IMG/VR virus record: IMGVR_UViG_3300047678_000824
Location: 1-42,420 of that record
Reading direction: 5' to 3' (one strand)
Length of the DNA: 42,420 bases
Origin: a virus
The notes under the pieces were generated by a model. It was not told the DNA's origin and made no database searches. It was given only the letters and a program-made list of their open reading frames with translations. Positions 26,108 through 40,036 of this stretch are shown here, piece by piece (the stretch's first letter is position 1; the number at the start of each line of letters is the position of its first letter). Made by a program: the position numbers and the translations under genes.

Positions 26108-27334
26108 TTATGATGCGGCGATGCGCTCTGCTTTCTTGCCAGTGAAATCCTCCCAGCGTTGGACAATTACGTCGCAATATTTGGGATCAAGCTCAATTAG
26201 ACGCGCTTGCCGTCCCAGTTTTTCGCAGGCGACCAGCGTGGTGCCGGACCCGCCAAAGCAATCCAGCACGATGTCGCGGCTCTTACTGCTGTTGTGGATG
26301 GCACGTTCTACCAGCTCGACTGGCTTCATGGTCGGGTGAAGATCATTGACGCGAGGCTTGTTCACGAACCAGACGTCGCCTTGATCGCGTGCGCCGCACC
26401 AGAAGTGGTCTGTGCCTTGCTTCCAGCCATAGAGGATAGGCTCGTACTGGCGCTGGTAGTCCGATCGGCCCAGCGTGAAGGTGTTCTTCGCCCAAATGAC
26501 GAAGGTCGACCATTTGCCGCCAGCGGCGACGAATGCTTTTTGCAACGTGTGCAGCTCGCTTGATGACATGCAGACGTAAATCGCGCCCTTGCAGACGGCG
26601 AGCATATTAACGCAGGCGTCGTACAAAAACGCTTCGAACCCTTCGCCAAGATTGTCGTTCATGATCCTGCGATCGTTGCCGCGCATCTTGTCCTTGGCTG
26701 TGTTGCCATAATCCACGTTATAGGGAGGATCGGTGAACACCATGTCAGCCAGAGAGCCGTCGAGAACCATTTCGACGTTCGCCAGCACAGTGCTATCGCC
26801 GCACAGCAGCCGGTGATTGCCCAGGACGTAAACATCGCCCGGCCTAGTAACGGGATCGACCGGCGCTTCCGGAACTGCGTCTTCATCAGTGTTGCCCTCA
26901 ACCGCATTTGGATCGGCAAGAAGATCGGACAATTCATCGTCCGTGAAACCCATAACTGGTAGATCAAAATCTTCTGCCGCGAGAGCAGTCATCTCTGCGC
27001 GCAACAAATCTTCATCCCATCCCGCGTTGAGCGCCAGCTTATTGTCGGCGATGACGTAAGCGCGCTTCTGATTTTCTGTTAGATGGTCAAGCACGACAAC
27101 AGGCACTGTTGCGAAGCCAAGTTGCCTTGCCGCTTGAAGGCGCCCATGCCCGGCAATAATGCCAGCCGAAGTGTCTACCAAAATTGGATTGAGAAATCCA
27201 AACTCTACAATGCTTGCGGCGATTTGGCTGACCTGTTCCGGCGAATGGGTGCGTGGATTGTTTTGATATGGCACGAGTTTGTCGAGCGGCCAAAGCTCGA
27301 TACGCTCCGCCATACGCGCCTTCAGATCAGACAT
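26108..27334 (-). CDS. ParB-domain / DNA methyltransferase fusion (beta class)
   Basis: The 408-aa protein has an N-terminal ParB/sulfiredoxin-like domain (about 10-115) with PYQNNPRTH, NPILVD and GHGRLQAA motifs. It is followed by an N6-adenine/N4-cytosine methyltransferase (about 165-400). Motif IV is DPPY (202-205) and motif I FGGSGTT (360-366); IV preceding I marks a beta-class enzyme. It transfers a methyl group from S-adenosylmethionine to adenine or cytosine. No restriction endonuclease lies nearby, so it probably protects phage DNA or alters gene expression. It begins 6 bases after the m5C methyltransferase stop and overlaps the end of the second frame at 27322. Confidence 0.92.
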   Translation of the reverse strand: MSDLKARMAERIELWPLDKLVPYQNNPRTHSPEQVSQIAASIVEFGFLNPILVDTSAGIIAGHGRLQAARQLGFATVPVVVLDHLTENQKRAYVIADNKLALNAGWDEDLLRAEMTALAAEDFDLPVMGFTDDELSDLLADPNAVEGNTDEDAVPEAPVDPVTRPGDVYVLGNHRLLCGDSTVLANVEMVLDGSLADMVFTDPPYNVDYGNTAKDKMRGNDRRIMNDNLGEGFEAFLYDACVNMLAVCKGAIYVCMSSSELHTLQKAFVAAGGKWSTFVIWAKNTFTLGRSDYQRQYEPILYGWKQGTDHFWCGARDQGDVWFVNKPRVNDLHPTMKPVELVERAIHNSSKSRDIVLDCFGGSGTTLVACEKLGRQARLIELDPKYCDVIVQRWEDFTGKKAERIAAS

Positions 27335-35619: not shown

Positions 35620-36483
35620 TTATTCTCCTTGCTTCTGAACATCGGTTTGTTGGGGGCGGACATAGGTCAGGCGCTCGGCGGCGGGCTTGGCCGCTCCGGC
35701 GATCTTTTCCATCAAGCGTCCGAGGTGAGGTTCTTCGACCATGTCGAGCCGACCACTGCGATCCTTTGCGGGGAAGCCGAATGGATTGAGCGTGTGGCAG
35801 ACGAAGGCGCGATACGGCGTTTCGTCGTCGGCCTTAAGCTCGGCCATGGTGATGACCTGATCGACGATCCCTGGAAGCTCCAGCCCCGTCTTCGAGCCTT
35901 CGATCTGCGGCTGGAAGAAGCGACGATTAAAGTCGTCCAGCTTCTCGTCGAGGATGCCGACGAACCAGATGTTCTTGCCGCGCGCGTGCTGGAGGTGCGT
36001 CAGCCAGCCGATCATCTCCTGGCCGTGCAGACCGTATGCACCGCGCGTGTCCGGCTTTCCGGTCTTGTCGCTGAAGGCTTGCGGCTGCCCCTTGCACCAT
36101 TGGAAGCAAAGGCGTCCGGCGACGGTGATGGAATCCACGAACACCGTGTCGTATTTCGCCACAGCGGCGGGATCGCCAAAGCGTTCCTTCACAGCGTCGA
36201 AATGCGCTTGGCTGTAGGGCTGATCCTCGCGCAGAGCCGGATTGGGGCCGCCGATGAACACCGCGAAGTCGCGGCATTCCTGCCAGGTGCGCGGGCGCAC
36301 CGTGTCGCCAGCCCAGCCTTCGATGGCAAGGTCTCCGGCCTCAAGGTCGAAGAAGAGCGTTTTTTCGGGCGGCAGCGTCCAGAGCAACGACGTCTTGCCG
36401 ATGCCGGACTTGCCGAAGATGCAGCCCTTGATGCCGCGCTTTTCGGCAAGCCGTTCGTCGGCGGAGATGATGGGGAGCGTCAT
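35620..36483 (-). CDS. Sak4-like RecA-fold ATPase
   Basis: The 287-aa protein has Walker A GKSGIGKT (24-31), an early FFDLEAGD motif and Walker B-like YDTVFVDSIT (111-120), typical of AAA_24/Sak4 phage ATPases. These RecA-related single-strand annealing or recombination proteins usually work with an adjacent SSB, which is present here (35036). The C-terminal 60 residues are proline- and charge-rich. It overlaps the 97-aa gene upstream by four bases and ends two bases before the SSB start. Confidence 0.85.
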   Translation of the reverse strand: MTLPIISADERLAEKRGIKGCIFGKSGIGKTSLLWTLPPEKTLFFDLEAGDLAIEGWAGDTVRPRTWQECRDFAVFIGGPNPALREDQPYSQAHFDAVKERFGDPAAVAKYDTVFVDSITVAGRLCFQWCKGQPQAFSDKTGKPDTRGAYGLHGQEMIGWLTHLQHARGKNIWFVGILDEKLDDFNRRFFQPQIEGSKTGLELPGIVDQVITMAELKADDETPYRAFVCHTLNPFGFPAKDRSGRLDMVEEPHLGRLMEKIAGAAKPAAERLTYVRPQQTDVQKQGE

Positions 36484-36773: not shown

Positions 36774-36946
36774 TTCTTTGCTCCTTTTTGGGTTTTCAGT
36801 CGCAGCGCGCCGCGCAGCCAGCGGCAGACCAATTCGGCCTTGGCCAGCAGTCGCCGCAGTTCGGTTTCATCCATCTCCAGCAACTGCCCGACGGGCGTGC
36901 CGAAGACGGCGTCGATGGAATCTTTCTGGGGGCGTGGATCAGACAT
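36770..36946 (-). CDS. Very small early protein (58 aa)
   Basis: From the ATG at 36946, which has GGGAGG upstream, the product is 58 aa: an N-terminal acidic/proline segment, a helix LLEMDETELRRLLAKAELVCRWL, and a basic tail (LKTQKGAKK). No family recognised. It overlaps the AlpA-like gene by 8 bases and the next gene by 4. The charged helix plus basic tail is compatible with binding nucleic acid or a host protein. Confidence 0.6.
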   Translation of the reverse strand: MSDPRPQKDSIDAVFGTPVGQLLEMDETELRRLLAKAELVCRWLRGALRLKTQKGAKK

Positions 36947-37160
36947 TTGCGCCTCCCTCGGCCTGGGCGGCGAGTTGGCGCAACGCGCCTTCGTCGTGCG
37001 TGGTTTCGTATGCCTCGACTTCATCAAGTCGATAGCGAATACGTCCGCCGATTTTTACGAAGTTCGGACCAACGCCAAGCCACCGCCAGCGCTCAAGAGT
37101 GCTTGGCGATAGCTTCCAGCGCTGGGCCAGTTCCTTGGCTTTAAGGAATGTTCCAGTCAT
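36939..37160 (-). CDS. AlpA/excisionase-like winged helix-turn-helix protein
   Basis: From the ATG at 37160 the 73-aa product has the MerR/AlpA pattern FLKAKELAQRWKLSPSTLERWRWLGVGPNFVKIGGRIRYRLDEVEAYE. It probably binds DNA as an excisionase or transcription regulator of the early operon it heads. The ribosome binding site AAGGAG (37174-37169, 8 bases before the ATG) is buried in a perfect 11-bp inverted repeat, so translation may be controlled by RNA structure, or the repeat may be its operator. An in-frame start 11 codons upstream would lie on the other side of that stem. Confidence 0.8.
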   Translation of the reverse strand: MTGTFLKAKELAQRWKLSPSTLERWRWLGVGPNFVKIGGRIRYRLDEVEAYETTHDEGALRQLAAQAEGGANV

Positions 37161-37263: not shown

Positions 37264-38169
37264 CTAATTCACCAAAAGGCGGCATGTGCCGCGTGGCTTG
37301 CCGTACTCGATCAGGCTTTTCCATGTCGGATGGCCGTTGAACAGGTTGGCGATGCGGCGGGTGCCTTCCACGCCGATGGCGCTCATCACTTCGGATGTCT
37401 TTGCGGACATCTGGCCTTTTTTATAAAGCTCAATGAGATGCTTGACGAAAGCGCGCTGCGAATCGCCTGGGAAATGGTGCGTTGTGCCGTTCAGCGTTAC
37501 GTTGGCGTAATCGGCGGAATGGGTTAGCTGGCCGTTCTGGGTGGGCTGGTTGTTCCACACACGCTCCAGAACGTCCGCGCTGAGGAGGTTTTTATCCGGC
37601 GTGCTGCCCAGGCAAGTATTCATGGAAATCGCGCGGTGTGCGGAAATTTTCTCTGGGTTCTGCTTGTGAGGAGACGTGAGGAGGATCATGCCTGTTTCGT
37701 CGGCGAGAGCCGCGATGCCTTCATTCACGGCTTTTTTCGATGCGTCATAGCCACGGCACAGGTAAATGGGGTGGGGCTTTTTTTCGAGCCTGACCGCGCC
37801 GATTTTCCAGCATATGTTGGCTACGACTTCCTTGGTTTTTTCGTTCGCGGGGATGCCAAGGGATTTGCGGGCGGCCTCAATCAGCCACGGAGCGGATGCC
37901 TGGTACCGCATCACATGTTTCGCGGTAAAGGAAAGGTTTCCAGCGTCTGCGCAATAGGCTTTGAAGGTGGAAGGATCGACGACGACATCGTGAGGTTCGT
38001 CGCATTGCGGACAAAAGAGGTGGCTGACGTTGCCGGAATGCACAAGCGCCTTTTCTTTCACCAGCGCGTCAAACCATGTTTGCCTGCCCTGAAAAATGGC
38101 ATCGGCTTGAGTGATGTGTTCGCCGCTGTCAAAGAGATGAAGCAGCCATGCATGACGGTTTTCAGGCAT
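37264..38169 (-). CDS. Unrecognised 301-aa protein with a zinc-ribbon-like motif
   Basis: I do not recognise this family. The first 40 residues look like a winged-helix (LHLFDSGEHITQADAIFQ), followed by a CPQC motif near residue 53 and a single YC around residue 72 that could complete a small zinc site. The rest is mixed helix and strand, with HSADYANVTLNGTTHHFPG and a C-terminal helical region (SAKTSEVMSAIGVEGTRRIANLFNG). It overlaps the 417-aa gene by 8 bases, so the two are translated together. It lies between the early operon and the immunity region, the place of superinfection-exclusion or regulatory genes in other phages. DNA binding is plausible; any role is inference. Confidence 0.7.
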   Translation of the reverse strand: MPENRHAWLLHLFDSGEHITQADAIFQGRQTWFDALVKEKALVHSGNVSHLFCPQCDEPHDVVVDPSTFKAYCADAGNLSFTAKHVMRYQASAPWLIEAARKSLGIPANEKTKEVVANICWKIGAVRLEKKPHPIYLCRGYDASKKAVNEGIAALADETGMILLTSPHKQNPEKISAHRAISMNTCLGSTPDKNLLSADVLERVWNNQPTQNGQLTHSADYANVTLNGTTHHFPGDSQRAFVKHLIELYKKGQMSAKTSEVMSAIGVEGTRRIANLFNGHPTWKSLIEYGKPRGTCRLLVN

Positions 38170-39415
38170 ACTTTTTCAGTTTTTCCTCTTCGGGTTCAGG
38201 ATCAGGCTCAAGCGTCTGTTCCGATACAACATCCTCAAGGATTCCCCATTGCTTGAGGTAACCCTCGATCATCTGACGGTCGTCCTCCTTCAGGGATTTG
38301 AGATCAGACCCGTCCTTTTTAAGAGAAATGTGGATCGCGCGTCCGCGCCCGCCTTCTTTTTTCGGGCGGAAATGGAAACTCAGCACAACGTGGAACAGCG
38401 AATATTTGCCGTATAGCTCTCCGTTCTCATCAAAGTAGGTGCGGATCGCATACATATCTGAATTCTTGCCTTGCGCCATGGTGTCCACCGTGACGATATG
38501 CTTGCAAGGCACGCCACAATAGAGGTCGAGCTTCCGCACGCGTACCACGTCAATGTTATCCTCCGGCTTCGTTTGCAACGTTGGGGCCGTGGGGCGCGAC
38601 TTGAATTTGTCGATGGCGAAGCGAACAGGCTCGGTGGGAGTGAATTCGGCGGCATCCTGCTTAAGGATGGATTTGGCGAAAGCCTGCCGCACCAATTCGT
38701 GATTGTCCTTGCCTCCGTCCACGACGGTGCATAGCTGCTTGGTCTGCGGGTCATACACGACAGCCGCGACAATCGCCTTCTTGGTGTTTACGCGGTGCAG
38801 TTGTTTGTCTTTGACCTGAATATCGCTGTTAGGAAGATCGTTCACATACACGCTGATCTGGCGTGTCCCGTCCGAATAACGCTTATAGACTTCGCCGCAG
38901 CATTCATCACGGTTGTCGAAATTGTGACGGATGATTTTCGCTACCTCAAAGGCGAATTCGTTTGCGTCGTCTTCGGTGATGTTGTCGAGTGTGCCATCCA
39001 TCTTGATGGCGTAATGCTGCCACGATCTGCCTTCGGCCTTGAAATCGACGAACAGAAGTTCTTCGGCGGTCTTGAACAGGGCGTTGTCTTCAAGAAAAAT
39101 AGCCATGGCGCGATGATGGCCGTTTTCCATGGCCTCAAGTTTCTTTGCCATCTCGTCAGGTTTTTCGCTTGCGTTGATCAGCGCCTTGACGCCACGGTCG
39201 CTGGCGATGACATTGATGCGTTCGAGATGCGCGTGTATCGGTTCGTAATCGGCCTGCGCGAGCGCGTTGATTGCAGCTTCGAGCGCGGAGGCCACGACCT
39301 TATCGTCCTGCGTCCAATCGATCGGATTGGCGAAGGGGACGTTGTGAGCTTCGCAATAGTTTTTGAAAATTGATTTGGGGACGTGGCTCGCTACCGTCCG
39401 GATTGATACTGCCAT
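38162..39415 (-). CDS. Unrecognised 417-aa protein facing the repressor
   Basis: The product (417 aa from the ATG at 39415) has no motif that I can assign. It starts MAVSIRTVASHVPKSIF, has a helical first 130 residues, then beta-rich stretches with acidic and aromatic residues (FVDFKAEGRSWQHYAIKMDG, TKKAIVAAVVYDPQTKQL, YSLFHVVLSFHFRPKKEGG). It ends in a glutamate-rich tail (PDPEPEEEKLKKYA). An alternative GTG at 39439 would add 8 residues. It is the first gene of the leftward transcript from a near-consensus promoter overlapped by an inverted repeat, and is coupled to the 301-aa gene. A phage-encoded defence or lysis-lysogeny factor is a reasonable hypothesis, not more. Confidence 0.7.
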   Translation of the reverse strand: MAVSIRTVASHVPKSIFKNYCEAHNVPFANPIDWTQDDKVVASALEAAINALAQADYEPIHAHLERINVIASDRGVKALINASEKPDEMAKKLEAMENGHHRAMAIFLEDNALFKTAEELLFVDFKAEGRSWQHYAIKMDGTLDNITEDDANEFAFEVAKIIRHNFDNRDECCGEVYKRYSDGTRQISVYVNDLPNSDIQVKDKQLHRVNTKKAIVAAVVYDPQTKQLCTVVDGGKDNHELVRQAFAKSILKQDAAEFTPTEPVRFAIDKFKSRPTAPTLQTKPEDNIDVVRVRKLDLYCGVPCKHIVTVDTMAQGKNSDMYAIRTYFDENGELYGKYSLFHVVLSFHFRPKKEGGRGRAIHISLKKDGSDLKSLKEDDRQMIEGYLKQWGILEDVVSEQTLEPDPEPEEEKLKKYA

Positions 39416-39446: not shown

Positions 39447-39489
39447 TTGATTTCTGATTATCGTTGCATTAATCTATTGAGTCAACGAT
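39447..39489. promoter_or_regulatory. Divergent promoters with an operator-like inverted repeat
   Basis: Leftward: TTGACT (39485-39480) and GATAAT (39462-39457) with a 17-bp spacer. Rightward: TTGATT (39447-39452) and TAATCT (39470-39475), also 17 bp. An inverted repeat, ATCGTTG (39460-39466) and CAACGAT (39483-39489), overlaps both leftward boxes and flanks the rightward -10, so a bound dimer could repress both. The S24 gene downstream is the natural candidate regulator. Confidence 0.65.
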
Positions 39490-39517: not shown

Positions 39518-40036
39518 ATGCCAAGAGGTGGCACGCGTGCCGGAGCCGGACGCCCCAAGGGATCGGGAAAGTACGGAGAGAAAACCATCACCGTCAGAAT
39601 TCCAGCCAGCATGGAAGACGAGGTTAAAGAGTTTATTGAAAACCAAGGGTGGGAAATACCCCTGTATTCAAGCAAGGTCGCCGCAGGAAATCCGTGCTGG
39701 GGGGACGATCATGTCGGCGACACCATCAATCTTTCTGACTGCCTTGTACGCGATCCCACGAAGACCTTCTGCGTTCAGGCTACCGGAGAATCAATGATAA
39801 AGGCTGGGATTGAGCCAGATGACCTGCTGGTCGTCGATGCTGGCCTGGAGGCAAAAAACGGCAGCATCGTTGTCGCGGCGGTGGATGGGGATTTAACCGT
39901 CAAGCGACTGCATAAGACGAAGAGCGAATTATCACTCATGCCGGAAAATGATAACTACCGTCCCATAAAAATTACCGCTGAAACTGGTTTGCAGATATGG
40001 GGCGTGGTCACCAAGGTTATCAAAGCTGTGGGGTAG
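39518..40036 (+). CDS. UmuD/LexA-like S24 autoprotease, probable phage repressor
   Basis: From the ATG at 39518 (GAGGAAA upstream) the product is 172 aa. The C-terminal half is an S24 domain with cleavage site Ala56-Gly57 in KVAAGNP, nucleophile Ser92 in GESMIKAG and Lys129 in LTVKRL. The Ser-Lys spacing of 37 equals that of E. coli UmuD. The N-terminus has a basic glycine-rich arm, GGTRAGAGRPKGSGKYG, and TITVRIPASMEDEVKEFI, which resembles a ribbon-helix-helix. No UmuC partner is present, and the gene faces the early operon across an operator-like region, so a repressor inactivated by RecA-stimulated self-cleavage fits better than a polymerase V subunit. A UmuD role cannot be excluded. Confidence 0.85.
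   Translation: MPRGGTRAGAGRPKGSGKYGEKTITVRIPASMEDEVKEFIENQGWEIPLYSSKVAAGNPCWGDDHVGDTINLSDCLVRDPTKTFCVQATGESMIKAGIEPDDLLVVDAGLEAKNGSIVVAAVDGDLTVKRLHKTKSELSLMPENDNYRPIKITAETGLQIWGVVTKVIKAVG

Follow-up and report, generated by a model that had tools for sequence, protein, structure and literature searches.

What function is served by the two overlapping genes that head the leftward early operon of this phage, divergent from the gene for an S24/UmuD-like autoprotease? The window, by which we mean the whole stretch of 42,420 nucleotides that was analysed, is the 42.4-kb record of a temperate tailed phage (IMG/VR record IMGVR_UViG_3300047678_000824). At the right end of the record lie a gene for a large serine recombinase and a DUF2924-type gene, and the minus strand codes for the terminase, portal, head protease, major head protein, tape measure and tail proteins. 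An earlier sequence-only reading had singled out the pair as two overlapping leftward open reading frames on the same strand at the head of the operon, and both the frames and their place were confirmed. The first gene (38162..39415, minus strand; ATG at 39415, stop at 38162-38164) codes for a protein of 417 aa and the second (37264..38169, minus strand) for a soluble partner of 301 aa, and the two are referred to here as 417 and 301. They overlap by 8 nt (38162..38169, minus strand), which is the commonest junction among the relatives too, and translational coupling through this overlap is likely. The starts and lengths of both reading frames are kept in three relatives at 73-80% identity, and the whole arrangement is retained in close relatives (73-80%).

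The operon past 301 is given as context. It continues with a gene for an HTH_17 (excisionase/AlpA-like) protein (36939..37160, minus strand), which is the usual next operon gene after the pair, and with two small genes. These are followed by a Sak4-like AAA protein (35620..36483, minus strand), encoded by the first gene of a recombination/replication module, and then by an SSB-like protein, a helicase, a PD-(D/E)XK nuclease and a Toprim/AAA primase-helicase.

The divergent regulator and the promoter region

The gene that faces the pair (39518..40036, plus strand) codes for an S24/UmuD-like autoprotease with a VAAG cleavage-site-like motif. This neighbour had been called a repressor. A divergent gene of the regulator type is indeed present, but its product is an S24 peptidase of the UmuD type (129.6 bits with NCBIfam PRK10276, whose cut-off is 110) whose function as a repressor is presumed. 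No full DNA-binding domain was recognised in it, and its N-terminus is short and basic with a strand-helix arrangement. Neither UmuC nor any other CI/XRE repressor was seen in the record, and the S24 gene is the only S24/CI/XRE-like regulator that was seen.

A sigma-70-like promoter, TTGACT-17-GATAAT, is predicted at 39457..39485 on the minus strand and reads into 417. It is overlapped by a 30-nt inverted repeat (39460..39489) with two 14-nt arms that are 79% complementary, and this repeat is a candidate operator. The pair had been said to be led by a strong, apparently repressed promoter, and this claim holds in part: the promoter match by itself is not above chance (1 found against 1.9 expected), but its place is the divergent gap, the inverted repeat overlaps it, and the region is partly conserved in three relatives.

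An undescribed two-gene unit

For neither 417 nor 301 does any Pfam, NCBIfam or PADLOC model reach its cut-off, in agreement with the earlier statement that neither has a recognised domain, and searches of PDB sequences, Pfam, NCBIfam and PADLOC with the single proteins and with profiles returned nothing. The PADLOC models of known anti-phage defence match neither protein. Nor does either sequence match any replication or tail family that is known, the kind of homology that had been named as speaking against a new phage-encoded system. The sole match of 417 is phrog_37634 (E 1.9e-48), a family of unknown function. 417 belongs to this family: each of the 35 members tested gives a match, the best with an E of 2.6e-93, and the annotation of the family carries no function, pairing or fold.

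With a four-sequence profile the 417 family was found in 27 of 398 Pseudomonadota genomes and with a deeper profile in at least 182 viral contigs; the loci of 80 of these contigs were fetched and examined. A genome scan with a peptide pattern gave one close relative only, three different 417 queries found no relative among 50,697 phage records, and one relative was found among 72,556 plasmids. When every reading frame of the fetched loci was scanned, a 301 homologue followed directly after a 417 homologue on the same strand in 118 of 126 cases, a count that includes closely related contigs as they stand. The remaining 417 homologues are three at contig ends and five that are alone, the latter mostly short or broken. 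Furthermore, the pairwise identities of 417 and 301 correlate with an r of 0.80 over 51 dereplicated loci, and thus the two genes are not independently distributed; an independent distribution was the other observation that would have spoken against a new system. Over dereplicated loci the pair correlates with Sak4 at an r of 0.19 and 0.14, with the helicase at 0.23, with ImmA at 0.35 and with the serine recombinase at 0.55-0.60, and Sak4 correlates with the helicase at 0.87. It follows from this pattern that 417 and 301 are one unit, and that its exchange is separate from that of the recombination module and of the repressor.

In one relative (L156:95-1588) a single in-frame reading frame comprises most of the 417 homologue together with the linker and C-terminal winged helix of the 301 homologue; it is either a natural fusion or a deletion product.

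Linkage to immunity regulators and conservation in the phage group

Among the 100 loci with at least 1.2 kb of upstream sequence, 88 have an immunity-type regulator within 2.5 kb of the pair. This is a divergent XRE with an ImmA/IrrE-type peptidase at 52 loci, a co-directional XRE-ImmA directly upstream of the pair at 27, a co-directional LexA/S24 at five and a divergent S24 at four; the XRE/ImmA proteins at these loci were identified as M78 plus HTH_3. These findings support the view that 417 and 301 make up a distinct phage unit, hitherto undescribed, in the immunity region, the site of exclusion or antirepressor genes. The more specific roles that such a site suggests, namely phage exclusion, antirepressor action or takeover of the host, found no support.

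A Sak4-type gene lies within 4 kb downstream of the pair at 65 of the 83 loci that have room for it. Conversely, among 41 contigs that were anchored on Sak4 and have enough upstream sequence, 33 have the pair and four further contigs carry one recognisable half of it. On inspection of the eight exceptions, four (L190, L220, L225 and L226) were found to have a strongly diverged pair, in which a protein of about 390-450 aa is followed by one of 316-371 aa with a Cys-rich ribbon and which in L190 and L226 stands immediately after an S24/LexA gene. Two others (L258 and L264) have in the same slot a single regulator of 227 aa with the C-terminal winged helix of 301, and in L240 and L268 no counterpart was accounted for. 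Because of these last two the pair is near-core and not universal in this phage group. Such near-core presence fits a role in the life cycle of the phage itself at least as well as it fits cargo defence.

A profile made from the diverged proteins detected this second subfamily, 417' and 301', in 21 of 299 genomes, a number that includes a few weak cross-matches to the first subfamily. The order LexA/S24, 417', 301' on the same strand is the rule in most of the 20 loci that were fetched, and LexA and 417' often overlap or are no more than about 40 nt apart. In L302 and L303 a gene for a 376-aa DUF3800-like protein lies between 417' and 301'. The two subfamilies are homologous, with a hhalign E of 1.9e-24 over 354 columns for 417 and of 2.6e-10 for 301.

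Predicted fold of the 417-aa protein

The 417-aa protein was modelled with AlphaFold2 from 35 aligned sequences, and the model is moderate (mean pLDDT 70.8, pTM 0.47). In it residues 1-127 (39035-39415, minus strand) are all-helical with eight helices, residues 128-395 (38231-39034, minus strand) form an alpha/beta region like the CLN-HD of CENP-N and like RdgC, and residues 396-417 (within 38162..39415, minus strand) are an acidic tail that is not conserved in the alignment of relatives. The sequence-only reading had described this protein as long and beta-rich with an acidic end, which has to be qualified, because the first 127 residues are all helical and the remainder is mixed alpha/beta, and because the tail, although present, is limited to the closest relatives. 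The proline at position 13, at the start of helix 2, is almost invariant (105 of 115), and the protein of the window is acidic overall with a charge of -11.

The models of 417 and 301 were compared with 350,542 PDB chains using Foldseek. Every one of the 12 best matches found with the 417 model is a CENP-N/Chl4 or RdgC protein, after which there is a drop, and CENP-N/Chl4 proteins make up nine of the top ten, with low TM-scores. The best match is 7pkn_N (E 5.9e-6, prob 1.00), followed by others such as 6eqt_B (E 4.9e-5) and the yeast chain 6qld_N (E 1.0e-4), and RdgC was matched as 2owl_A (E 1.0e-3, prob 1.00, TM 0.28-0.36). The TM-scores of the matches are only 0.2-0.37 and reflect the local order of structure and no rigid superposition. 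RexA is absent from the top 50 PDB matches of this model of pTM 0.47. Profile comparison with hhalign, in which the background was the score range of 16 unrelated phage families and the sister subfamily was compared too, gave an E of 0.37 against 24 RdgC sequences, of 0.19 against CENP-N (the human query is identical to PDB chain 7xho_N) and of 0.46 against lambda RexA, all within the background. In addition, none of the 35 members of the 417 family matched RexA (PF15969) or RdgC (PF04381) in Pfam. Since the profile scores lie inside the background, homology to RdgC, CENP-N or RexA is not claimed from sequence. Nevertheless, it is fairly probable from the model that 417 has the fold of RexA, RdgC and CENP-N(Chl4), since the matches span human, yeast and E. 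coli proteins that are already known to be of one fold.

The 301-aa partner

The AlphaFold model of 301, from 49 sequences, has a pLDDT of 82.8 and a pTM of 0.64. The predicted layout is an N-terminal winged helix, a zinc-ribbon-like segment, a middle alpha/beta domain and a C-terminal winged helix. The winged-helix-like start that had been read from the sequence fits the model (helices at 5-15, 21-26 and 30-38 and strands at 42-52, pLDDT about 90). The zinc-ribbon-like motif that had been noticed next to it also stands, in that the Cys residues of the predicted segment (C53, C56 and C73; 37951..38013, minus strand) are real and similar patterns occur in relatives, namely in 21 of 22 sister proteins and in 10 of 117 of the subfamily of the window. 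Because of this distribution the zinc ribbon is read as probably ancestral, lost in most of the subfamily of the window and kept in the clade to which the window belongs. The C-terminal winged-helix region (37267..37539, minus strand) is the part that is shared with the single regulator of L258 and L264 and that is joined to 417 in L156. No PDB chain of the same set matched the 301 model below an E of 0.001, and the weak matches include winged helices of response regulators. 301 has no membrane segment, its maximum 19-aa hydropathy being 0.92 against 2.39 for RexB.

Comparison with known systems

Lambda RexA has the RdgC fold, which is common also to Iml3/Chl4, it binds DNA non-specifically and shifts the CI-Cro switch towards the lytic state, and rexA lies in the cI operon together with rexB (PMC11077077). 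A prophage defence of the RexAB type, RexABpp, has been reported in Pseudomonas putida (PMC12894663). The pair described here resembles RexA-RexB (PF15969/PF15968) and RexABpp in that its first gene has a predicted RexA/RdgC/Chl4 fold and in that it is a two-gene unit adjoining a prophage repressor (88 of 100 loci), and the LexA, 417', 301' order on one strand in the sister subfamily is like that of cI, rexA and rexB in lambda. It differs in having no sequence or Pfam match to Rex, in the length of 417 compared with the 279 aa of RexA and its extra N-terminal helical domain, and in the second protein, since RexB is a four-helix membrane protein whereas 301 is a soluble winged-helix/zinc-ribbon protein. 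Also, rexAB lies in the repressor operon while most relatives of the pair are divergent from the repressor and stand first in the early operon. 301 was considered as a RexB-like partner and rejected for want of a membrane segment.

RdgC (PF04381) is a structural match to 417 (E 1e-3, prob 1.00), and it acts on DNA in the RecA/SOS pathway, which also controls prophage induction. However, RdgC is chromosomal and forms homodimers, whereas 417 is phage-borne, paired and provided with an extra helical domain, and there is no profile similarity between them. CENP-N/Chl4 is the best structural match and covers nearly the whole length of 417. CENP-N consists of a five-helix bundle (1-77), the beta-sheet domain CLN-HD (78-212) and a C-terminal region that binds CENP-L, and its conserved P17 and nearby basic residues contact DNA (PMC5777823). 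The domain order predicted for 417, helical bundle, CLN-HD-like beta-sheet and C-terminal region, is the same, and P13 of 417 is reminiscent of P17, a parallel that we offer as an observation only. CENP-N/Chl4 is eukaryotic, unlike the phage protein, and sequence similarity does not go beyond background. No CENP-L-like partner was recognised here: 301 was not of the CENP-L fold in the tests run, and it was rejected as such a partner, the profiles of 301 and 417 having no similarity. A paper on a kinetochore domain in defence genes (SKA1) proved to be unrelated.

We therefore regard the pair as an immunity-region unit that is RexA-like in its site and its presumed working, and do not assign it to the families of Rex, RdgC or CENP-N. 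It was not filed as a Rex member because the predicted fold and the place match RexA while the sequence and the partner do not. The unit is common, yet it has no Pfam model or name.

Proposed role of the pair

The best reading, which we hold tentatively and at just short of an even chance, is that the pair is an immunity-linked, DNA-binding unit of the RexA/RdgC fold that modulates the lysis-lysogeny (SOS) switch. 417 would grip DNA through its predicted RexA/RdgC/CENP-N(Chl4) fold, to which a helical N-terminal domain laid out like that of CENP-N would be added, and 301, judging from its fold, may give specificity for sequence or partner, the two proteins presumably forming a complex. Expression would be from the promoter under the neighbouring autocleaving regulator (S24/LexA, or XRE with the ImmA protease in relatives) or, alternatively, the unit would lie in the same operon as that regulator. 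The unit may then bind operator or early-region DNA of the phage, or the regulator itself, and thereby bias the lysis-lysogeny switch in SOS-type induction as RexA does for lambda CI/Cro. Modulation of the switch is the likeliest role because the regulators next to which both genes are retained are of the SOS type and belong to two unrelated kinds, and the predicted DNA-gripping fold together with the inseparable pairing beside the repressor suggests that the pair probably tunes the decision between dormancy and killing. Two points go against a simple copy of RexA, namely the charge of 417, which is unlike that of a typical DNA binder, and the fact that most relatives of the unit are transcribed divergently. 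Should the predicted fold be right, RexA would be no rare case, since it would belong with other immunity-linked DNA-clamp proteins in a broad class whose partners differ; the pair would offer a route to the tuning of SOS-sensing repressors of either type (LexA/S24 or XRE-ImmA), and there would be a phage parallel for the CENP-N architecture.

A bolder reading, which we consider doubtful, is that the 417 family are phage relatives of CENP-N/Chl4 that would form with 301 a heteromeric DNA clamp. The clamp would grip operator DNA or DNA in replication and would be coupled to autocleaving regulators of the SOS type. If this is true, phages would have a lysogeny switch of a new class, and the whole domain layout of a eukaryotic centromere protein would have a source in prokaryotes.

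It has also to be considered whether the pair serves superinfection exclusion or abortive defence in the manner of RexAB, where 417 would be the sensor of foreign DNA or of replication intermediates and 301 the regulator or effector. The predicted RexA-like fold, the immunity-region site and the defence shown for a P. putida prophage (PMC12894663) would suit this, as would the single plasmid copy directly upstream of a multi-ubiquitin/JAB/E1 operon and the AbiE-like genes just downstream of 301 in several relatives (see below). We think it unlikely, however; PADLOC gave no match, 301 lacks a membrane segment, no enzyme domain that could serve as effector was recognised, and the pair is near-core in the phage group and not patchy like cargo.

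An RdgC-like control of RecA, in which 417, by coating DNA, would either hold RecA in check or shield phage DNA during replication and would belong functionally with the downstream Sak4-helicase-nuclease-primase module, is likewise improbable. The structural match to RdgC, the presence of Sak4 within 4 kb downstream at 65 of 83 loci and the SOS-linked regulators as partners argue for it, RdgC having been reported to inhibit RecA-dependent LexA cleavage (PMC11077077). But the pair evolves independently of Sak4 and the helicase (r about 0.2, against 0.87 between those two), and it is found with two different recombination modules and also without either. Membership in the recombination module was therefore rejected as the main reading.

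Finally, it is very unlikely that 301 is an ordinary early regulator, a Cro/O-like transcription or replication-initiation factor with 417 as its chaperone or co-factor and the CENP-N resemblance an accident of modelling, because, in spite of the winged-helix ends of 301, the position at the head of the early operon and the few islands in which the pair adjoins a DUF927 protein or an integrase, the structural matches, be they human, yeast or E. coli proteins, gather in a single superfamily and 417 is conserved as much as 301.

Other genes near the pair and its relatives

On the plasmid of Candidatus Tenderia electrophaga (CP013100.1; L004:10001-14682) the pair lies directly upstream of a gene for a multi-ubiquitin protein, and genes for a JAB-like protease and E1/ThiF follow, so that this is an operon for bacterial ubiquitin-like conjugation; the only gene of phage type recognised nearby is integrase-like. 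A link of the pair to ubiquitin was rejected, since a search with the multi-ubiquitin, JAB and E1 proteins found no relatives around the other genome loci, and L004 is therefore treated as a single case.

Genes like those of the toxin-antitoxin pair AbiE, so named from their sequence only, lie on the opposite strand just downstream of 301 in nine loci (L064, L074, L093, L096, L098, L100, L115, L116 and L149), and the interval between 301 and HTH_17 looks like a cargo site. Very distant 417/301 pairs occur in genomic islands (L083:7123-12310, L084 and L077). In L083 and L084 the pair is followed by proteins of 843-921 aa that have no Pfam match, and in L084 an integrase-like gene and a gene for an H-NS/SWIM-type protein lie upstream of it.

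In one close relative (L003:524-3090) genes for type I restriction methylase-like and RhuM-like proteins lie past the S24 gene, in the position that the recombinase occupies in other members. At 26108-27334 the window itself codes for a DNA methyltransferase to which a ParB-like nuclease domain is fused (phrog_498, E 1.2e-164).
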